Positions 11,221 to 26,766 of a stretch of DNA of 64,000 nt are shown here, piece by piece. The position numbers and the translations under genes were made by a program. Numbering within the stretch: the first letter of the stretch is position 1; each line of letters opens with the position of its first letter. The notes beneath the pieces are model-generated. The model was not told where the DNA came from. It saw only the letters and a list, made by a program, of their open reading frames with translations, and made no database searches. The stretch comes from a virus: IMG/VR virus record IMGVR_UViG_3300028361_000012, positions 124,001-188,000 of that record; one strand, given 5' to 3'.

Positions 11221-11287
11221 AGCGCTAACAATCAAGTGATTATAAATTAATTTTAATTTTATCTAAAAAAGATTAGGTTTTATTGAA

Positions 11288-11312
11288 ACAAAAGTATTAT
11301 ATTTGCGTATAA
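11288..11312 (+). promoter_or_regulatory. Promoter of tRNA cluster 1
   Basis: ACAAAA (11288-11293) and CGTATAA (11306-11312), spacing 12. The intervening TATATTTG is also a Bacteroidetes -7 box. GAAACAAAAGTATTA is shared almost exactly with the promoters at 15254 and 48678. Confidence 0.75.
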
Positions 11313-11352
11313 TAAAACGAGAAAACAAAATTTTAGTATATTTAGAAATAAC

Positions 11353-11457
11353 ATGAAAAACATTAACAACATATTACGTCAGTTATCACTGCAATTCTTG
11401 CAGTTACTGTTTGTCTTTAGTAGACAAAAGTTCGGACGTGATATGTCTTTAGTGTGA
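11353..11457 (+). CDS. Candidate attenuation leader peptide of tRNA cluster 1 (34 aa)
   Basis: ATG 11353 to TGA 11455 encodes a 34-residue peptide with 7 Leu, 4 Phe, 4 Gln, 3 Arg and 2 Val. It contains the run QFLQLLFVF. It lies between the cluster promoter and a strong terminator, and the next genes are tRNA-Phe, Val, Leu, Arg, Leu and Leu. Codons used include TTA, CTG, GTG, CGT and TTC, all readable by those tRNAs. Within it are a TTTGTCT/AGACAAA hairpin (11410-11428) and GTTCGG (11430-11435), which can pair with CCGAAC in the terminator's 5' arm. A small hydrophobic toxin is an alternative reading. Confidence 0.55.
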   Translation: MKNINNILRQLSLQFLQLLFVFSRQKFGRDMSLV

Positions 11458-11487
11458 TGATGTAAATTATATAACACAAGATATTTT

Positions 11488-11520
11488 AAAAGCCCGAACA
11501 TAATTGTTCGGGCTTTTTTT
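11488..11520 (+). terminator. Intrinsic terminator / attenuator before tRNA-Phe
   Basis: AAAAGCCCGAAC (11488-11499) and GTTCGGGCTTTT (11506-11517) form a 12-bp stem with a 6-base loop and T tract. It sits between the leader ORF and the first tRNA, so tRNA transcription needs readthrough or processing of an independent transcript. Confidence 0.85.
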
Positions 11521-11573
11521 GTGCCCTATGGAAACGTCCATTGGTATTCGAAAGGAAAATTATTGAAATAAAT

Positions 11574-11647
11574 GGAATAGTAGCTCCAATTGGTAGAGCG
11601 TCATCTTGAAGCGGTGAGCGTTGGCGGTTCGAATCCACCCTATTCCA
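11574..11647 (+). tRNA. tRNA-Phe(GAA)
   Basis: Acceptor GGAATAG/CTATTCC. Anticodon arm TCATC-TTGAAGC-GGTGA gives anticodon GAA. D and T arms are present, with one mismatch in the T stem. CCA is not encoded. Confidence 0.92.
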
Positions 11648-11674
11648 CTATAAGTTCTTTGAAATAATTATTAT

Positions 11675-11760
11675 TTAGGTTTTAGCATTTAATGTTCGTT
11701 CTTTGATAATATTGATTATGATGTCAAGATATTTTTTAATAGTTTTTATTAAAAAATATA
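11675..11760 (-). pseudogene. Remnant of an endonuclease 3' end
   Basis: On the minus strand this reads KKYLDIIINIIKER followed by a short tail and stop. 41 bases (11697-11737) match the 3' end of the endonuclease fragment at 13246-13917 (13262-13302) at 39 positions. No upstream coding part remains. It is a footprint of a lost or recombined copy. Confidence 0.5.
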
Positions 11761-11826
11761 TTAAAAATTAAATTTCGAGCCCTTCTTGGTTTGACCTAAG
11801 ATGAAATTTATAAATTTAGAAAAAAT

Positions 11827-11900
11827 AGGAGTATAGCTCAGTTGGTTAGAGCGCTGATTTTACATGTCAGATGTCGGGGATTCGAATTCCTCTACTCCTA
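11827..11900 (+). tRNA. tRNA-Val(UAC)
   Basis: Acceptor AGGAGTA/TACTCCT. Anticodon arm CTGAT-TTTACAT-GTCAG gives UAC. T arm GGGGA-TTCGAAT-TCCTC. No encoded CCA. Confidence 0.93.
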
Positions 11901-11960
11901 CAAAAATGTAAAATTGTGATAGGATAATCGGAAATATTCCGACTAACTATCCAAAAATAT

Positions 11961-12041
11961 GCAGATGTGGTGGAATGGTAGACACGCTGGTTTTAGAAAC
12001 CAGTGCCGAAAGGCGTGCGAGTTCGACTCTCGTCATCTGTA
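11961..12041 (+). tRNA. tRNA-Leu(UAG), copy 1
   Basis: Class II tRNA with acceptor GCAGATG/CATCTGT. Anticodon arm CTGGT-TTTAGAA-ACCAG gives UAG. Variable arm TGCCGAAAGGCGT. The first 25 bases are identical to copy 2 at 13009, so the two are recent paralogues. Confidence 0.93.
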
Positions 12042-12057
12042 CAAAAAATTTTAAATA

Positions 12058-12374
12058 TGAAACCGAGAATATTTTACACAGAATCAGCACTTCCAATAAT
12101 TTTAGAGGCTCTTGGATATAAAGAAGAGAGTAGAGAACGTGGTAGAAAGTTTAAAATTAAATGCGTTGAATACAAAGGTGGTTGTTGTGAAAAATGTGGA
12201 TATGATAAATATGTTGGAGCTTTACAGTTTCATCACCTTGACCCAAAAGAAAAAGGTTTTGCTTTAAGTAAAATGAAGTCGCATAAGTTTGATAAAAAAA
12301 TAAAAGAAGAATTAGATAAGTGTATGTTGGTTTGTGCTAATTGTCACTTTGAAATTCATAGCTCCATGGTGTAA
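12058..12374 (+). CDS. HNH endonuclease inside the tRNA cluster (105 aa)
   Basis: ATG 12058 (MKPRIFYTESALP) lies just after tRNA-Leu. The HNH core is seen in order: two zinc-knuckle cysteines (CCEKCGYDKY), HHLDPKEKG, and CMLVCANCHFEIH at the C-terminus. It is the size of free-standing phage HNH homing enzymes. Its last 15 bases, including the stop, are the first 15 bases of tRNA-Arg, so coding and tRNA sequence are fused. It probably spreads the adjacent tRNA segment; that role is inferred. Confidence 0.85.
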
Positions 12375-12432
12375 TGGATTAGCACCTAACGCTACGAACG
12401 TTAAAGTCTCAGTTCGAATCTGGGTGGAGTTA
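12360..12432 (+). tRNA. tRNA-Arg(ACG)
   Basis: Acceptor AGCTCCA/TGGAGTT. Anticodon arm TAACG-CTACGAA-CGTTA gives ACG (A34 would need editing to inosine). T arm CTCAG-TTCGAAT-CTGGG. It overlaps the HNH stop by 15 bases. An ArgRS-like protein is encoded at 56831. Confidence 0.9.
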
Positions 12433-12446
12433 CAAATAAAAATGAA

Positions 12447-12995
12447 ATGAAAAAGTTAGTATACATAAATGATTTGGTCAATGAAGATTTTATTGACACC
12501 TTGGTAAGGGATGTTAGTTGGATTGATGAGACGAAGATGAGAAGAGAGTGTTTTATGGCAGATTCTGACATTGAATACTCTTACTTAGACCACAGTGGAG
12601 CTCCAACTTATAAATCAACACCAATGTTGCCTGCGATTAGGGAAATAATGGAAAAGGTTAATAAAAAGTTGGGAACAAGTTTGGATATTTGCTTCTTGAA
12701 TTTATATATGAACTCAAGAAATGGATTAGGATGGCACGCTGACGACTCTCATTCAATTGACCATAATGATGGGATAGCGGTTGTATCATTTGGGGCTGAA
12801 AGAGAAATTTGGTGGAAGTTAAAAGGAGAAAAAGGAGTAGTTCCAGAAGAGAATAAGAGAAAGTTAGAAAATGGTTCTTTATTCTATATGCCTCCAGGAT
12901 TCCAAGATACAAATTTGCACAGGATTCCTAAGCACGATAGAGATTGTGGCCCAAGAGTGAGTATGACTTTTAGAAAATATAAAGCTGTAGATTAA
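12447..12995 (+). CDS. alkB: AlkB-like 2-oxoglutarate/Fe(II) dioxygenase (182 aa)
   Basis: Oxidative demethylase of alkylated bases in DNA or RNA. The iron ligands are seen: H97 and D99 in GLGWHADD, and the distal His in NLHRIPKH followed by RVSMTFRKY, which carries the 2-oxoglutarate-binding Arg. Length fits the compact AlkB fold. It sits between tRNA-Arg and tRNA-Leu in the same direction and would be co-transcribed with them. This suggests tRNA demethylation or protection, although DNA repair is equally compatible with the family. Confidence 0.9.
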   Translation: MKKLVYINDLVNEDFIDTLVRDVSWIDETKMRRECFMADSDIEYSYLDHSGAPTYKSTPMLPAIREIMEKVNKKLGTSLDICFLNLYMNSRNGLGWHADDSHSIDHNDGIAVVSFGAEREIWWKLKGEKGVVPEENKRKLENGSLFYMPPGFQDTNLHRIPKHDRDCGPRVSMTFRKYKAVD

Positions 12996-13008
12996 TCTAC
13001 AGCGCCAT

Positions 13009-13089
13009 GCAGATGTGGTGGAATGGTAGACACAATAGCCTTAGAAGCTATGGCCGAGAGGCGTGCGAGTTCGACTCTCGCTATCTGTA
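13009..13089 (+). tRNA. tRNA-Leu(UAG), copy 2
   Basis: Class II. Acceptor GCAGATG/TATCTGT. Anticodon arm ATAGC-CTTAGAA-GCTAT gives UAG. Variable arm TGGCCGAGAGGCGT. Same anticodon as copy 1, with a different anticodon stem. Confidence 0.92.
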
Positions 13090-13098
13090 CAAACAAAT

Positions 13099-13189
13099 GC
13101 TCCTGTGGCGAAATTGGTTGAAACGCATCAGACTTAAAATCTGATACCCATGCAGGTAAACGTTGTCGGTTCGAGTCCGACCAGGAGTA
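13099..13189 (+). tRNA. tRNA-Leu(UAA)
   Basis: Class II with a long variable arm. Acceptor GCTCCTG/CAGGAGT. Anticodon arm TCAGA-CTTAAAA-TCTGA gives UAA. T arm GTCGG-TTCGAGT-CCGAC. Confidence 0.92.
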
Positions 13190-13199
13190 GACAACCAAA

Positions 13200-14255: not shown

Positions 14256-15176
14256 TTATTGTTTTTGTCGTTTGACAGAGTTTGTTAGAATTTGATTAAT
14301 ATCATCAATTTCAAGGTAAGATATTCTTAAAATTTTAGGTTTATCATTTATGCCTGTGCAATATTGATTTTTGATTTCATCTTTTTTCTTTCTGTCATCT
14401 GAATAGTATCTGTTTTTTTTATTAAAATGCTGAATGCCATCATATTCTATGCAAAGATTTAATTTTGGCAAATAAAAATCAAAAGGAAGTGTTCTTTTGT
14501 CTTTACAATCTTTGAATCTTTTTTGAGGTATAAATTTTATTGAATTTTCTGTTAAGAAATTTCTTATTGCAATTTCTCCTTTAGATTCACAACAGATAGG
14601 ACAGCCATTTTTATTGCTAAGGTGGTCATTTGGTTTTTGTTGAAATTCACCATGTTGATTACATATTATTGTTACATTTAAGTTTGATTTTTTATACTCA
14701 ACATTTGAATAATCATATTTGTCTCCATGAGTATAAATTGCTTTTTTAATAAATTCTTCTGCATTTGAAGTTCTTGAATTAGCTCTTTTTTTAATGCCAC
14801 ATTTAGAGCATCCAAGTTTGTTCATGTGGTCTTGAGGCCTCTGTTTAAATTTTCCATGCTCTGGGCATATTATTGTCACTTTAGTGGCGTTATTTTTATA
14901 TTCTACTAAAGAATAATCATACTTGCTATTGTGAGATTTGTTAGATTGCTCAATGAATTCATTGATAGATAATCTAACCCCACCATTGCATTTAGGGCAC
15001 CCAGATTTTTTATTTATATGATTATCTGGAGTTACACTAAACTGACCATGCTTTGAGCATATAATTATAACTTTAATTTTAGAATTTGAATATTTAGATA
15101 GAGAATAGTCATATCTATCTACATGAGCACAAATTGCTTTTTGAATAAACTTTTCTGTTTTAGATTCTTTGTTCAT
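14256..15176 (-). CDS. Homing-type endonuclease with zinc-ribbon repeats (306 aa)
   Basis: Three repeats of about 65 residues each contain KYDYS..EYKN...TVIICxxHGxF..xPxxH followed by a CPKC-type pair, probably DNA-binding ribbons. The C-terminal nuclease has LPFDFYLPKLNLCIEYDG and a later acidic/Lys segment, as in restriction-like (Vsr/PD-(D/E)XK) folds. Such proteins are common free-standing endonucleases in large phages. It runs against the surrounding genes and ends 10 bases from the end of the membrane-protein gene. Confidence 0.75.
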   Translation of the reverse strand: MNKESKTEKFIQKAICAHVDRYDYSLSKYSNSKIKVIIICSKHGQFSVTPDNHINKKSGCPKCNGGVRLSINEFIEQSNKSHNSKYDYSLVEYKNNATKVTIICPEHGKFKQRPQDHMNKLGCSKCGIKKRANSRTSNAEEFIKKAIYTHGDKYDYSNVEYKKSNLNVTIICNQHGEFQQKPNDHLSNKNGCPICCESKGEIAIRNFLTENSIKFIPQKRFKDCKDKRTLPFDFYLPKLNLCIEYDGIQHFNKKNRYYSDDRKKKDEIKNQYCTGINDKPKILRISYLEIDDINQILTNSVKRQKQ

Positions 15177-15253
15177 ATCAATAAATATATTAAAAATTTC
15201 TGAACCCTATTGCTTACGACAAAAATAATTAAAAAAAGAGTTGAATAATTGAA

Positions 15254-15278
15254 ACAAAAGTATTACATTTGCGTATAA
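15254..15278 (+). promoter_or_regulatory. Promoter of tRNA cluster 2
   Basis: ACAAAA (15254-15259) and CGTATAA (15272-15278), spacing 12. TACATTTG lies between the boxes. Nearly identical to the promoter at 11288. Confidence 0.75.
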
Positions 15279-15382: not shown

Positions 15383-15464
15383 GGCCCAGTGGTGGAATTG
15401 GTAGACACGCACGTTTAAGGGGCGTGTGTCGCAAGACGTGTCGGTTCGACTCCGACCTGGGTCA
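15383..15464 (+). tRNA. tRNA-Leu(AAG)
   Basis: Class II. Acceptor GGCCCAG/CTGGGTC. Anticodon arm CACGT-TTAAGGG-GCGTG gives AAG with G37, as in CUN-reading tRNA-Leu. Variable arm TGTCGCAAGACGT. It lies upstream of the Gln leader ORF, so it is not under that attenuator. Confidence 0.85.
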
Positions 15465-15524
15465 CAAATAGCGGATTACCACGCTGATTATTGGTAAACA
15501 AAAAAAGAATACTATTTAAAAGTA

Positions 15525-15605
15525 ATGAAAACAGTAATTAACATAAACGTACAGCAGCAACAGCAGCAACAATCTTCGAAAGAGGACAGTCCTGGTGGTG
15601 CCTGA
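15525..15605 (+). CDS. Candidate poly-Gln attenuation leader peptide (26 aa)
   Basis: ATG 15525 encodes a 26-residue peptide with seven consecutive Gln codons (15552-15572; CAG CAG CAA CAG CAG CAA CAA), then a short polar tail and TGA at 15603-15605. The next features are a terminator and four tRNAs with Gln anticodons. GCCTGAAC, which spans the stop (15600-15607), is perfectly complementary to GTTCAGGC in the terminator (15651-15658). A ribosome stalled at the Gln codons would leave it free to form an antiterminator, and a ribosome reaching the stop would cover it. The role is inferred from this geometry. Confidence 0.65.
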   Translation: MKTVININVQQQQQQQSSKEDSPGGA

Positions 15606-15658
15606 ACATTTTAGTTAATAAAACAAAAATATTTAAAGCCTGGACTGAACGTTCAGGC
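15600..15658 (+). promoter_or_regulatory. Candidate antiterminator pairing for the Gln-tRNA attenuator
   Basis: The 8-base strand at 15600-15607 and its complement at 15651-15658 compete with the terminator's CAGGCTT arm (15654-15660). Both helices cannot exist at once. Confidence 0.6.
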
Positions 15659-15667
15659 TTTTTTTTG
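15636..15667 (+). terminator. Intrinsic terminator / attenuator before the Gln tRNAs
   Basis: AAGCCTG (15636-15642) and CAGGCTT (15654-15660) form a 7-bp stem with an 11-base loop, followed by a T tract. Confidence 0.85.
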
Positions 15668-15677
15668 TGTTTAATAT

Positions 15678-15748
15678 TTCGGGGTCGTCTAATGGCAGGA
15701 TTTCACTTTTTGACAGTGACCATAGAAGTTCGAATCTTCTCCCCGAAA
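15678..15748 (+). tRNA. tRNA-Gln(UUG), copy 1
   Basis: Acceptor TTCGGGG/CCCCGAA, with the U1-A72 pair typical of tRNA-Gln. Anticodon arm TCACT-TTTTGAC-AGTGA gives UUG. T arm AGAAG-TTCGAAT-CTTCT. Confidence 0.92.
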
Positions 15749-15789
15749 CAAACACTTTACTATTGACCATTGATAGTAAAGTGTAATAT

Positions 15790-15872
15790 TGTACAGTGGA
15801 GAAACTGGCAGATTCGCCCGCCTTTGAAGCGGGTGCCCAAAAGGCGTGTAGGTTCGAGCCCTACCTGTACAA
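15790..15872 (+). tRNA. tRNA with Gln anticodon UUG but a class II variable arm
   Basis: Acceptor TGTACAG/CTGTACA keeps U1-A72. Anticodon arm CCCGC-CTTTGAA-GCGGG gives UUG. The variable arm TGCCCAAAAGGCGT is 14 bases with a GCC/GGC stem and closely resembles that of the phage tRNA-Leu(UAG). The loop differs from tRNA-Leu(UAG) copy 2 by one base (CTTAGAA versus CTTTGAA). Amino-acid identity is therefore uncertain: Gln by anticodon and acceptor, Leu-like by arm. Confidence 0.8.
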
Positions 15873-15941
15873 CCAAGTATGCATATGCTTTATGAACGAC
15901 AACCTCTGCAGGGGTTGGGATATTAGTAATGTGTGCGATAT

Positions 15942-16015
15942 TGTAGGATAGACAAACTGGTAAAGTCACTCGACTCTGAATCGAGAATTTGAGGGTTCGA
16001 AGCCTTCTCTTACAA
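15942..16015 (+). tRNA. tRNA-Gln(CUG)
   Basis: Acceptor TGTAGGA/TCTTACA. Anticodon arm CTCGA-CTCTGAA-TCGAG gives CUG. T arm GAGGG-TTCGAAG-CCTTC. Its D arm resembles that of the tRNA at 16022. Confidence 0.9.
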
Positions 16016-16021
16016 CTAAAT

Positions 16022-16097
16022 TGCTCAGTGGACAAATTGGTAAAGTCGCCACACTTTGAATGTGGAGTTTTTGGAGGTTCGAAGCCTTCCTGAGCAG
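16022..16097 (+). tRNA. tRNA-Gln(UUG), copy 2
   Basis: Acceptor TGCTCAG/CTGAGCA with U1-A72 and discriminator G. Anticodon arm CCACA-CTTTGAA-TGTGG gives UUG. T arm GGAGG-TTCGAAG-CCTTC. Confidence 0.9.
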
Positions 16098-16101
16098 CAA
16101 G

Positions 16102-16162: not shown

Positions 16163-16831
16163 ATGAATAGACAAGAAAGATACTCAAAAGAAAATTTTGA
16201 GAAAGCAATAAAGAGTGCAAGGTCAATAAAAGGGGCGCTAAAAAACTTAGATTTAAGAGCTGCAGGTGGAAACTATAAAGTATTTCACAAATATGTAAAA
16301 ATGCACTGTATTGATACATCTCATTTTGAGACAAGAGATGAAATATATAAAAGGTCATTAGGCGCTAATGCTTTAAGAAGAAAGAAACCTCTTTCAGAAA
16401 TACTTATCGAAGATTCAACATATGGAAGGACTCATTTAAAAAAGAGATTATATGAAGAGGGCTTAAAGGAAAAAAAATGCGAGATGTCAGGTTGTGGCCA
16501 GGGCGAGATTTGGATGGGAAAGAAGATGAGTTTAATTATCGACCATATCAATGGGGTCTATAATGATAATCGACTTGAAAATCTCAGAATTGTTTGCGCA
16601 AATTGTAATGCAACACTTCCAACTCACTGCGGTAAACATAATGCAAAACCAAAACAAAAAAAAGACCCAAGTATTAGGGAAAAATCTGATTTTAAAAAAA
16701 GAATAGTTAAACGACCTCCGTTTGCACAACTTAAACAGGAAATAGACGAATTAGGGTATTCTGCCACTGGCAGAAAGTATGGCGTGTCTGATAATGCTAT
16801 TAGAAAATGGCTCAAGTCATATGAAAAATAA
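16163..16831 (+). CDS. HNH homing endonuclease with C-terminal helix-turn-helix (222 aa)
   Basis: The N-terminal helical region (FEKAIKSARSIKGALKNL) resembles the DNA-reading module of phage HNH enzymes. The HNH core is CEMSGCGQGEIW, then LIIDHINGVYNDNRLENLR and IVCANCNAT. The C-terminus (GYSATGRKYGVSDNAIRKWL) is a recognisable small HTH. It directly follows the tRNA-Gln cluster and probably promotes inheritance of that locus. One of only two endonucleases here in the same direction as the tRNAs. Confidence 0.9.
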   Translation: MNRQERYSKENFEKAIKSARSIKGALKNLDLRAAGGNYKVFHKYVKMHCIDTSHFETRDEIYKRSLGANALRRKKPLSEILIEDSTYGRTHLKKRLYEEGLKEKKCEMSGCGQGEIWMGKKMSLIIDHINGVYNDNRLENLRIVCANCNATLPTHCGKHNAKPKQKKDPSIREKSDFKKRIVKRPPFAQLKQEIDELGYSATGRKYGVSDNAIRKWLKSYEK

Positions 16832-25287: not shown

Positions 25288-26766
25288 ATGAACATATTAT
25301 ACACTATATTGGGATTGTTATTGTTGCTGGTGGTTTACGACACCTTTAATAGAAAACATACAATCAAAAGCAATTTCCCATTGATTGGGAGGTTAAGGTA
25401 TTTCCTTGAGAAGATTGGACCAGAACTTCGACAGTACTGGGTTGCTAACAATAGAGAGGAGGGACCTTTTAATAGGGTTTGGAGAAACTATATTTATGCA
25501 AGCGCAAAGAAGCAGAACAATCTGACTGGATTTGGTTCCGACATGGACTTCGATAAAAGTGGAAACTTCTTTATTAAAACAAATGCGTTTCCAACGAACA
25601 TTAACAACACAATTAACGCAATTGCTCCAGACGTACTTCCTTGTGCTAAGACAATTGGGATGAGAAGAGAAAAGCCATACAGACCTAATTCGGTAATTAA
25701 TATCTCAGCGATGAGTTATGGTTCTCTTGGCAAAAGAGCAACTGAAGCAAATAACAGAGGGGCATATAAATCAAATTCTTATCACAATACTGGCGAAGGT
25801 GGATATTCTAAATATCACAAAGGAGGTGCAGATGTTGTATTTCACTTTGGAACTGGGTATTTTGGATGCGGCACTACAGATAGGGATGGGAACAGACAAT
25901 TTAGCATGGATAAATTACTGCACCTTATAGACACGGGCAAGAACATCAAAATGATTGAGATTAAATTATCTCAAGGTGCGAAGCCAGGAAAAGGTGGAAT
26001 GTTGCCAGGGAAGAAGGTAACAAAAGAAATAGCAGACATAAGAGGTATTGAAAAGGGGAAAGATGTTAATTCCCCCGCATACCACAGTGCGTTTTCAAAT
26101 GTTGATGAGCTGATTGCTTTAATTGAAGACATTGCGAGGCTAACAGGGCTGCCAGTTGGAATCAAGTCCGCTGTCGGTAAATTAGAATTTTGGCATGAGC
26201 TTGCTCAGAAAATGACAAGAGGTGTCGGTCCAGATTTTATAACAATTGATGGCGGAGAGGGTGGAACTGGAGCTGCTCCTGCAGCGTTTGCAGATAACAT
26301 GAGTCTTCCTTTGGATGATGCATTCACATCTGTCTATAAGATATTTCAACTCAGAGGAGCAATGGATAATATGGTTTGGATTGCCAGCGGAAAATTGGGG
26401 CATCCAACAAGAGCTGCTAAAGCATTTGCAATGGGAGCTGATGTTATCAACATTGCGAGAGAAGTAATGATTTCGGCAGGATGCATTCAAGCGCAAATAT
26501 GTCATACTGGAAATTGTCCAGCTGGGATTGCAACTCATAAGTGGTGGTTGGAAAAAGGGGTTAATGTTAGCGAGAAGGGTGATAGAGTTGGAAATTTTAT
26601 TAATACCTTAAAGAAAGATATAATTCAAGTAACACATGCTGCTGGATATAAACATCCTTGTGAATTTACAACAAATGATGTGGTTTTGAATATAGGTGAC
26701 ATGAGAAAAACGCTTGGCGAAGTTTATGATTACACTAAAACGCCAGTTGAAAACGAATTTAATTAA
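25288..26766 (+). CDS. FMN-binding glutamate-synthase-like protein with N-terminal membrane helix (492 aa)
   Basis: Homologous to the FMN/synthase domain of glutamate synthase (YerD-type stand-alone proteins). Residues 3-19 (ILYTILGLLLLLVVYD) form a membrane anchor. The barrel shows ISAMSYGSLGKRA, NTGEGGYSKYH, IEIKLSQGAKPGKGGMLPG, ITIDGGEGGTGAAP and GADVINIAREVM, followed by CIQAQICHTGNCPAGIATH, the cysteine cluster for an iron-sulfur centre. All these are the family's FMN and catalytic elements, so it looks functional. It is a full-length metabolic gene, unusual in a phage. Its role could be nitrogen or redox metabolism at the membrane. Confidence 0.9.
   Translation: MNILYTILGLLLLLVVYDTFNRKHTIKSNFPLIGRLRYFLEKIGPELRQYWVANNREEGPFNRVWRNYIYASAKKQNNLTGFGSDMDFDKSGNFFIKTNAFPTNINNTINAIAPDVLPCAKTIGMRREKPYRPNSVINISAMSYGSLGKRATEANNRGAYKSNSYHNTGEGGYSKYHKGGADVVFHFGTGYFGCGTTDRDGNRQFSMDKLLHLIDTGKNIKMIEIKLSQGAKPGKGGMLPGKKVTKEIADIRGIEKGKDVNSPAYHSAFSNVDELIALIEDIARLTGLPVGIKSAVGKLEFWHELAQKMTRGVGPDFITIDGGEGGTGAAPAAFADNMSLPLDDAFTSVYKIFQLRGAMDNMVWIASGKLGHPTRAAKAFAMGADVINIAREVMISAGCIQAQICHTGNCPAGIATHKWWLEKGVNVSEKGDRVGNFINTLKKDIIQVTHAAGYKHPCEFTTNDVVLNIGDMRKTLGEVYDYTKTPVENEFN

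Follow-up and report, generated by a model that had tools for sequence, protein, structure and literature searches.

Codon-matched leader ORFs precede tRNA operons in huge phages: computational evidence for ribosome-mediated transcription attenuation of tRNA genes

Introduction

Ribosome-mediated transcription attenuators of amino-acid operons (the trpL, hisL, leuL, thrL, and ilv types) use regulatory codons within a leader peptide. The leader peptide is combined with alternative antiterminator and terminator structures, and ribosome stalling at a scarce aminoacyl-tRNA turns on the downstream genes. The phage leaders described here share this design but would regulate the tRNAs themselves, several isotypes at once (an OR gate), with codons that match isoacceptors; further, unlike the trp and his leaders, most of them show no clear, strong 1:2 hairpin in the predictions and are predicted to be ON without translation. 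Attenuators of aminoacyl-tRNA synthetase genes, such as Escherichia coli pheST, likewise place translation-apparatus genes under control of charging level, but there the product is a protein enzyme, a single amino acid is concerned, and the gene is cellular. T-box riboswitches also sense uncharged tRNA and control transcription termination, but they do so by direct tRNA-RNA binding without a leader ORF, and the phage leaders in the regions searched have no Rfam match to them.

Why phages carry tRNAs, and when these are expressed, is an old question; the usual proposals are that they compensate for codon bias or offer rescue from defences that cleave tRNA. Al-Shayeb et al. 2020 (PMC7162821) described huge phages, including a 735-kb phage, with up to 67 tRNAs per genome and many synthetases; that study is the likely source of several huge-phage records used here. 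The words leader, attenuat-, and terminator are absent from its main text, and the open-access literature searched yielded no account of an attenuator controlling tRNA operons in phages (subscription literature and preprints lay outside the search).

Results

A Gln leader unit and its conservation

The window analyzed here is a stretch of 64,000 nucleotides, namely bases 124001-188000 of the 195,333-base record IMGVR_UViG_3300028361_000012. An initial annotation, made from sequence alone, had described a 26-codon ORF with seven Gln codons, an intrinsic terminator, and four tRNA-Gln genes, and had proposed that they form a ribosome-mediated attenuator controlling the tRNA genes. This description held, and the unit comprises the following features:

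15249-15275, + strand, putative promoter of the Leu-Gln tRNA unit, Bacteroidota type (TTG...TAnnTTTGCGTA), from motif recurrence
15383-15465, + strand, tRNA-Leu(aag) between promoter and Gln leader (ARAGORN; same order in the relative L005)
15525-15605, + strand, Gln leader ORF, 26 codons, peptide MKTVININVQQQQQQQSSKEDSPGGA (homologue in L005)
15552-15572, + strand, seven consecutive Gln codons, the putative stall site
15587-15595, + strand, predicted antiterminator strand CAGTCCTGG within the Gln ORF, pairing with 15639-15647 (prediction, covariation)
15600-15607, + strand, GCCTGAAC, complementary to the terminator 3' arm (15651-15658); kept in L005, weak across the family
15635-15661, + strand, intrinsic terminator AAAGCCTGGACTGAACGTTCAGGCTTT followed by a T run; its 5' arm contains 15639-15647
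15678-15749, + strand, tRNA-Gln(ttg) (ARAGORN)
15790-15875, + strand, tRNA-Gln(ttg) (ARAGORN)
15942-16016, + strand, tRNA-Gln(ctg) (ARAGORN)
16022-16098, + strand, tRNA-Gln(ttg) (ARAGORN)

The promoter motif (TAnnTTTG type) also lies upstream of the window's other leader (11283) and at other genes, with a chance expectation of 0.07 in the window, and the CAR run of the Gln leader was matched in 0 of 100 shuffles. HNH/homing endonuclease-like genes lie amid the tRNA genes of the window (14256-15176 on the - strand, 16163-16831, and 12003-12374, the last identified by eye).

The whole Gln unit is kept in L005 (IMGVR_UViG_3300009504_000946), whose class II synthetase is 73% identical to that of the window phage: L005 has tRNA-Leu(aag), the leader MKNVINISAQQQQQQSSREDGPGVA, a terminator of the same type, and four tRNA-Gln genes. 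Conservation in relatives had been proposed as a check in the initial annotation, and both the Gln run and the pairing it had proposed are conserved in L005. The antiterminator pairing of the 15587-15595 strand is maintained, with one A-U pair changed to G-U. Moreover, the distal part of the ORF (SSKEDSPGGA) differs between the two phages at three codons, all of them non-synonymous and none synonymous, yet the ORF can still pair with the terminator 5' arm; this points to constraint on the RNA. As separate observations, L005 carries an 84-codon ORF (L005:6995-7249), not found in the window, between the terminator of the Gln leader and the tRNA-Gln genes, as well as a tRNA-like gene (L005:936-1075) whose anticodon region is interrupted by several dozen extra bases, for which ARAGORN makes no call and which possibly contains an intron.

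Five leader units in one phage

The Gln unit is one of five leader units in this ∼195-kb phage, in which each of the five main tRNA operons has a leader. The initial annotation had overlooked a second unit in the window (11283-11517), as well as three more elsewhere in the genome. The features of the second unit are:

11283-11309, + strand, putative promoter of the second attenuated tRNA operon, from motif
11353-11457, + strand, leader ORF MKNINNILRQLSLQFLQLLFVFSRQKFGRDMSLV with Leu, Phe, Val, and Arg codons (homologue L005:712-813)
11430-11435, + strand, predicted antiterminator strand GTTCGG, pairing with CCGAAC at 11494-11499 (prediction, covariation)
11488-11517, + strand, intrinsic terminator of the Phe/Val/Leu/Arg leader
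11574-13190, + strand, tRNA operon behind this leader: Phe(gaa), Val(tac), Leu(tag), Arg(acg), Leu(tag), and Leu(taa), with small ORFs interspersed

This leader and its terminator are also kept in L005, where the leader reads MKNINNISRQLLLQVQLLFVFSRQEFGRNMSLS. Outside the window, the leader MKTVITNRWSRWSSSSNRATERTLVCQNVM precedes Ser/Cys/Arg tRNAs, MEKVYTYNENTSINPMGYMGAPAADDCSRDGIVLHKLKV precedes Pro/Asp/Tyr/Gly/Met tRNAs, and MYSLNIHTTINNTICNKKQNGMVELCISKNGSDELI precedes Asn/Thr/Lys/Ile/Met/Cys tRNAs, so that the five operon sets are Gln; Phe/Val/Leu/Arg; Ser/Arg/Cys; Pro/Asp/Tyr/Gly/Met; and Asn/Thr/Lys/Ile/Met/Cys. The true assignment of the five leaders to their operons scores highest among all 120 permutations, and each leader ranks between 2nd and 41st of 851 small ORFs for the amino acids of its own operon (Fisher p = 1e-5). 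In the scanned regions of this genome, 37 of 40 tRNAs lie under a leader; the geometric scan described below found no leader for the tRNAs near 72.4-73.9 kb and 104 kb. One tRNA at genome 73284-73356 (L019:13284-13356), in a group for which the scan found no leader, has the anticodon CTA and is a possible amber suppressor.

Three further observations concern these tRNA regions. A Cys-rich ORF (MKTNMTYWRPTSQAIDCGLEGVCPFCKKNVSLSVMK) with a terminator (genome 114395-114505) lies ∼0.8 kb upstream of two tRNA-Cys genes and is a possible sixth, internal leader. A hairpin motif of unknown function with an apical GAAACGU (e.g., TGGAAACGTCCA) is common to three operons, between the terminator and the first tRNA (window 11520-11574; L020:15890-15966; L021:10270-10320; L005:870-935). 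A GOLLD RNA lies near tRNA arrays (L021:5621-6047; genome 105621-106047), above the Rfam gathering score.

The window phage encodes Met-, Asx/Lys-, and Glu/Gln-class synthetases. Its host is probably a member of the phylum Bacteroidota, because the best 80 bacterial relatives of the Glu/Gln-class synthetase, with an alignment including other phages as the query, all belong to this phylum. A glutamate synthase domain protein (window 25288-26766), unusual for a phage, adjoins the Glu/Gln-class synthetase gene.

Leaders across huge phages

Relatives reached via the synthetases, comprising IMG/VR records and the huge-phage records LR756501, LR756502, LR756504, and LR745206, were scanned by geometry only, requiring a terminator ≤700 nt upstream of a tRNA and an ATG-initiated ORF of 14-45 codons ending 15-40 nt before that terminator. 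This yielded 37 leader-operon pairs from eight phages, in which 436 residues were cognate to the downstream tRNAs where 197.5 would be expected; not one of 100,000 permutations did as well. Examples include MKNNINTLVLLLNNLLLQSNRTGRVIQMC upstream of seven tRNA-Leu genes, MKTTMTITISRSRSSRSLPLVV upstream of Ser/Arg tRNAs, and MKAMILSLCLSLSLSLQKLGVVGVCKVIS upstream of Leu/Ser/Cys tRNAs. DNA patterns from three leader classes then located further IMG/VR contigs, on which the non-chance matches lie directly upstream of cognate tRNAs; loci found in this way are biased towards leaders, whereas the 37 geometry-only pairs are free of that bias. Altogether we identified 83 distinct leaders in 26 huge-phage records, upstream of tRNAs of all 20 isotypes. 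The Gln-only scope of the initial annotation was thus too narrow for what is a general design, applied to every isotype.

In most phages scanned, ∼80-100% of the detected tRNAs lie under a leader, the exceptions being the 735-kb phage (25 of 56 tRNAs; LR756501.1 comprises 735,411 bases) and a related record, G002 (0 of 19). The motif TAnnTTTG occurs ≤90 nt upstream of 50 of the 83 leaders, compared with 6 of 83 when shuffled. The gap from the leader stop to the terminator stem spans 17-36 nt, and the 15-40 nt filter partly determined these limits.

In control scans, three Bacteroidota genomes with 65 tRNAs produced four ORFs attributable to chance but no cognate leader, and the tRNA operons of Prevotella phage Lak-A1 gave no cognate leader. 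A direct DNA search of annotated phages returned no near relative, and tblastn with the leader peptides returned no more than one phage, already in the huge-phage set. Several candidates were rejected: a weak DNA match in a Lak phage falls within an AT-rich stretch without a tRNA or leader; the pattern match L008 corresponds to a scaffold-like protein encoded on a GC-rich contig that is unrelated; and other chance matches are on contigs without tRNAs.

Leader codons match the downstream tRNAs and their isoacceptors

For 73 leaders, the cognate match reached z = 16.8, and none of 20,000 swaps within genomes equaled it; each of the 20 amino acids occurs more often in leaders that precede an operon with its cognate tRNA. 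The signal is confined to the ORF's own frame (0.37, against 0.16 and 0.12 in the other frames). Furthermore, the match extends to isoacceptors, both for Arg (p = 1.6e-6) and for Ile (p = 6e-5). Leaders of operons with AGR-reading tRNA-Arg contain 22 AGR and 1 CGN codons, and those of operons with CGN-reading tRNAs contain 24 CGN and 12 AGR; leaders of tRNA-Ile(tat) operons favor ATA by 21:10, and those of tRNA-Ile(gat) operons favor ATY by 23:4. Homology among leaders of the same class, and the close relationship of some contigs, mean that the permutation and Fisher statistics lack full independence and that the p-values overstate it; the many different leader classes, together with the within-genome test, serve as a safeguard.

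A predicted RNA switch set by ribosome position

Folding was modelled with a ribosome at each codon, ignoring kinetics and proteins. In 62 of the 73 leaders, a ribosome in mid-leader is predicted to leave the terminator 5' arm sequestered and a ribosome at the stop codon to free it (difference >0.4), with a weak predicted switch in the remaining 11; the mean difference is 0.57, compared with 0.11 in shuffles. Other ORF-terminator pairs of the window phage give weaker switches on average, but three of them reach 0.46-0.51. Cognate residues account for 48% of the leader as far as the predicted switch codon and for 19% beyond that codon (p = 1.6e-46).

The leader strand pairs far better with its own terminator 5' arm (-12.4 kcal) than with the arms of others (-8.0 kcal; z = -15.8), also within genomes, and the pairing therefore covaries. 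Compensatory changes are visible in alignments, where, for example, most KWF-class leaders have GUUCGG:CCGAAC and two have CUUGG:CCAAG. The initial annotation had taken a different pairing as the antiterminator, namely that of GCCTGAAC (15600-15607) with GTTCAGGC (15651-15658) in the terminator 3' arm. While the complementarity is indeed perfect and is conserved in the L005 Gln leader, it is probably not the main antiterminator: over 83 leaders, pairing with the 3' arm gave z = -2.7 vs -13.4 for the 5' arm, which makes the 5'-arm pairing (here 15587-15595 with 15639-15647) the predicted family-wide antiterminator. We therefore rejected 3'-arm pairing as the family mechanism and regard it as an extra feature of the Gln leader, where it might add to the effect.

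Without a ribosome, the terminator 5' arm is predicted to be sequestered in most leaders (mean 0.67). Many leaders are therefore predicted to be ON by default, with translation to the end shutting the operon, and loss of translation alone could thus switch them on. A predicted 1:2 hairpin is strong in the Phe/Val/Leu/Arg leader (ribosome-free value 0.06 in the window and 0.19 in L005) and is not clear in most leaders.

Discussion

Our computational analyses establish the architecture of these units, their conservation, the codon and isoacceptor match, a covarying antiterminator, and the placement of cognate codons relative to the predicted switch. Among the criteria for an attenuator, (i) a short leader ORF between the promoter and the regulated genes, (ii) regulatory codons cognate to the regulated function, and (iii) an intrinsic terminator after the leader are met, and (iv) mutually exclusive antiterminator and terminator structures controlled by ribosome position are met by prediction and covariation, not by experiment. 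The proposal of a ribosome-mediated attenuator is thus supported by conservation, the codon match over 83 leaders, covarying antiterminators, and codon placement before the switch. We consider it very likely that the tRNA operons are under ribosome-mediated transcription attenuation triggered by shortage of the encoded tRNAs. In the absence of expression or translation data, translation of the leader, function of the terminator, and the role of tRNA shortage as the natural signal are inferences.

In the proposed mechanism, RNA polymerase would transcribe a leader ORF rich in codons of the tRNAs encoded just downstream. With these tRNAs plentiful and charged, the ribosome would reach the end of the ORF and cover its 3' part, leaving the terminator 5' arm free to form the hairpin, and the tRNA genes would not be transcribed. 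Were any one cognate tRNA scarce, the ribosome would stall at the corresponding codon, the ORF's 3' part would pair with the terminator 5' arm as antiterminator, and the polymerase would read on into the tRNA genes. Since the leaders of mixed operons are themselves mixed, each such unit would act as an OR gate over the isotypes of its operon, with negative feedback. Host shut-off, phage codon demand, and tRNA cleavage by host defence are possible sources of the shortage.

Among the alternatives, the one that survives best, while still unlikely, is that the switch reports a global loss of translation rather than of one tRNA, and that the codon match merely mirrors phage codon supply. The predicted default-ON state of most leaders favors this reading. 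Against it, the match is operon-specific within a genome and isoacceptor-specific, and cognate codons are concentrated before the switch point.

T-box-like control, in which uncharged tRNA would bind the leader RNA directly by codon-anticodon pairing without translation, is very unlikely. Leader triplets are indeed complementary to the anticodons of the regulated tRNAs; however, several in-frame cognate codons lie between an ATG and a stop, the match exists in one frame only, and the switch geometry tracks ribosome position. Searches for the Rfam T-box elements (Stem I, specifier loop, and antiterminator) gave no match in the window at the gathering threshold, or in the other three operon regions at E up to 0.1.

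Likewise very unlikely is a reading in which the leaders encode small functional peptides (or low-complexity proteins) and the terminator does no more than close a separate transcript from upstream. Conserved short ORFs whose peptides are specific to a class, e.g., KHFSKSNKWFS, do exist, but peptide content follows the downstream tRNAs in every class, the leader covaries with the terminator, and the changes in SSKEDSPGGA between the window and L005 are all non-synonymous with terminator complementarity kept. Chance juxtaposition of a Gln-rich ORF and a terminator near tRNAs, conceivable for one locus alone, is all but excluded by the 83 distinct leaders, the permutations, and the negative bacterial control.

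Ribosome-mediated attenuation of tRNA genes would work like the classical attenuators, and what is new is its target, its breadth, and its combinatorial logic: attenuation would now cover tRNA genes as well as enzymes, and mixed sets as well as a single amino acid. The leaders offer a route to annotating tRNA operons in unannotated huge phages, as well as ready-made sensors of single tRNA isoacceptors. In a bolder reading, which we consider likely, tRNA supply in a clade of huge Bacteroidota phages is organized genome-wide and at codon resolution: nearly every operon would have its own isoacceptor-spelling leader, and depletion of any of those isoacceptors, whether by phage demand, host shut-off, or a tRNA-cleaving defence, would release exactly that operon. 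The phage genome itself would state which shortage each tRNA operon answers, a claim that is directly testable in reporters.
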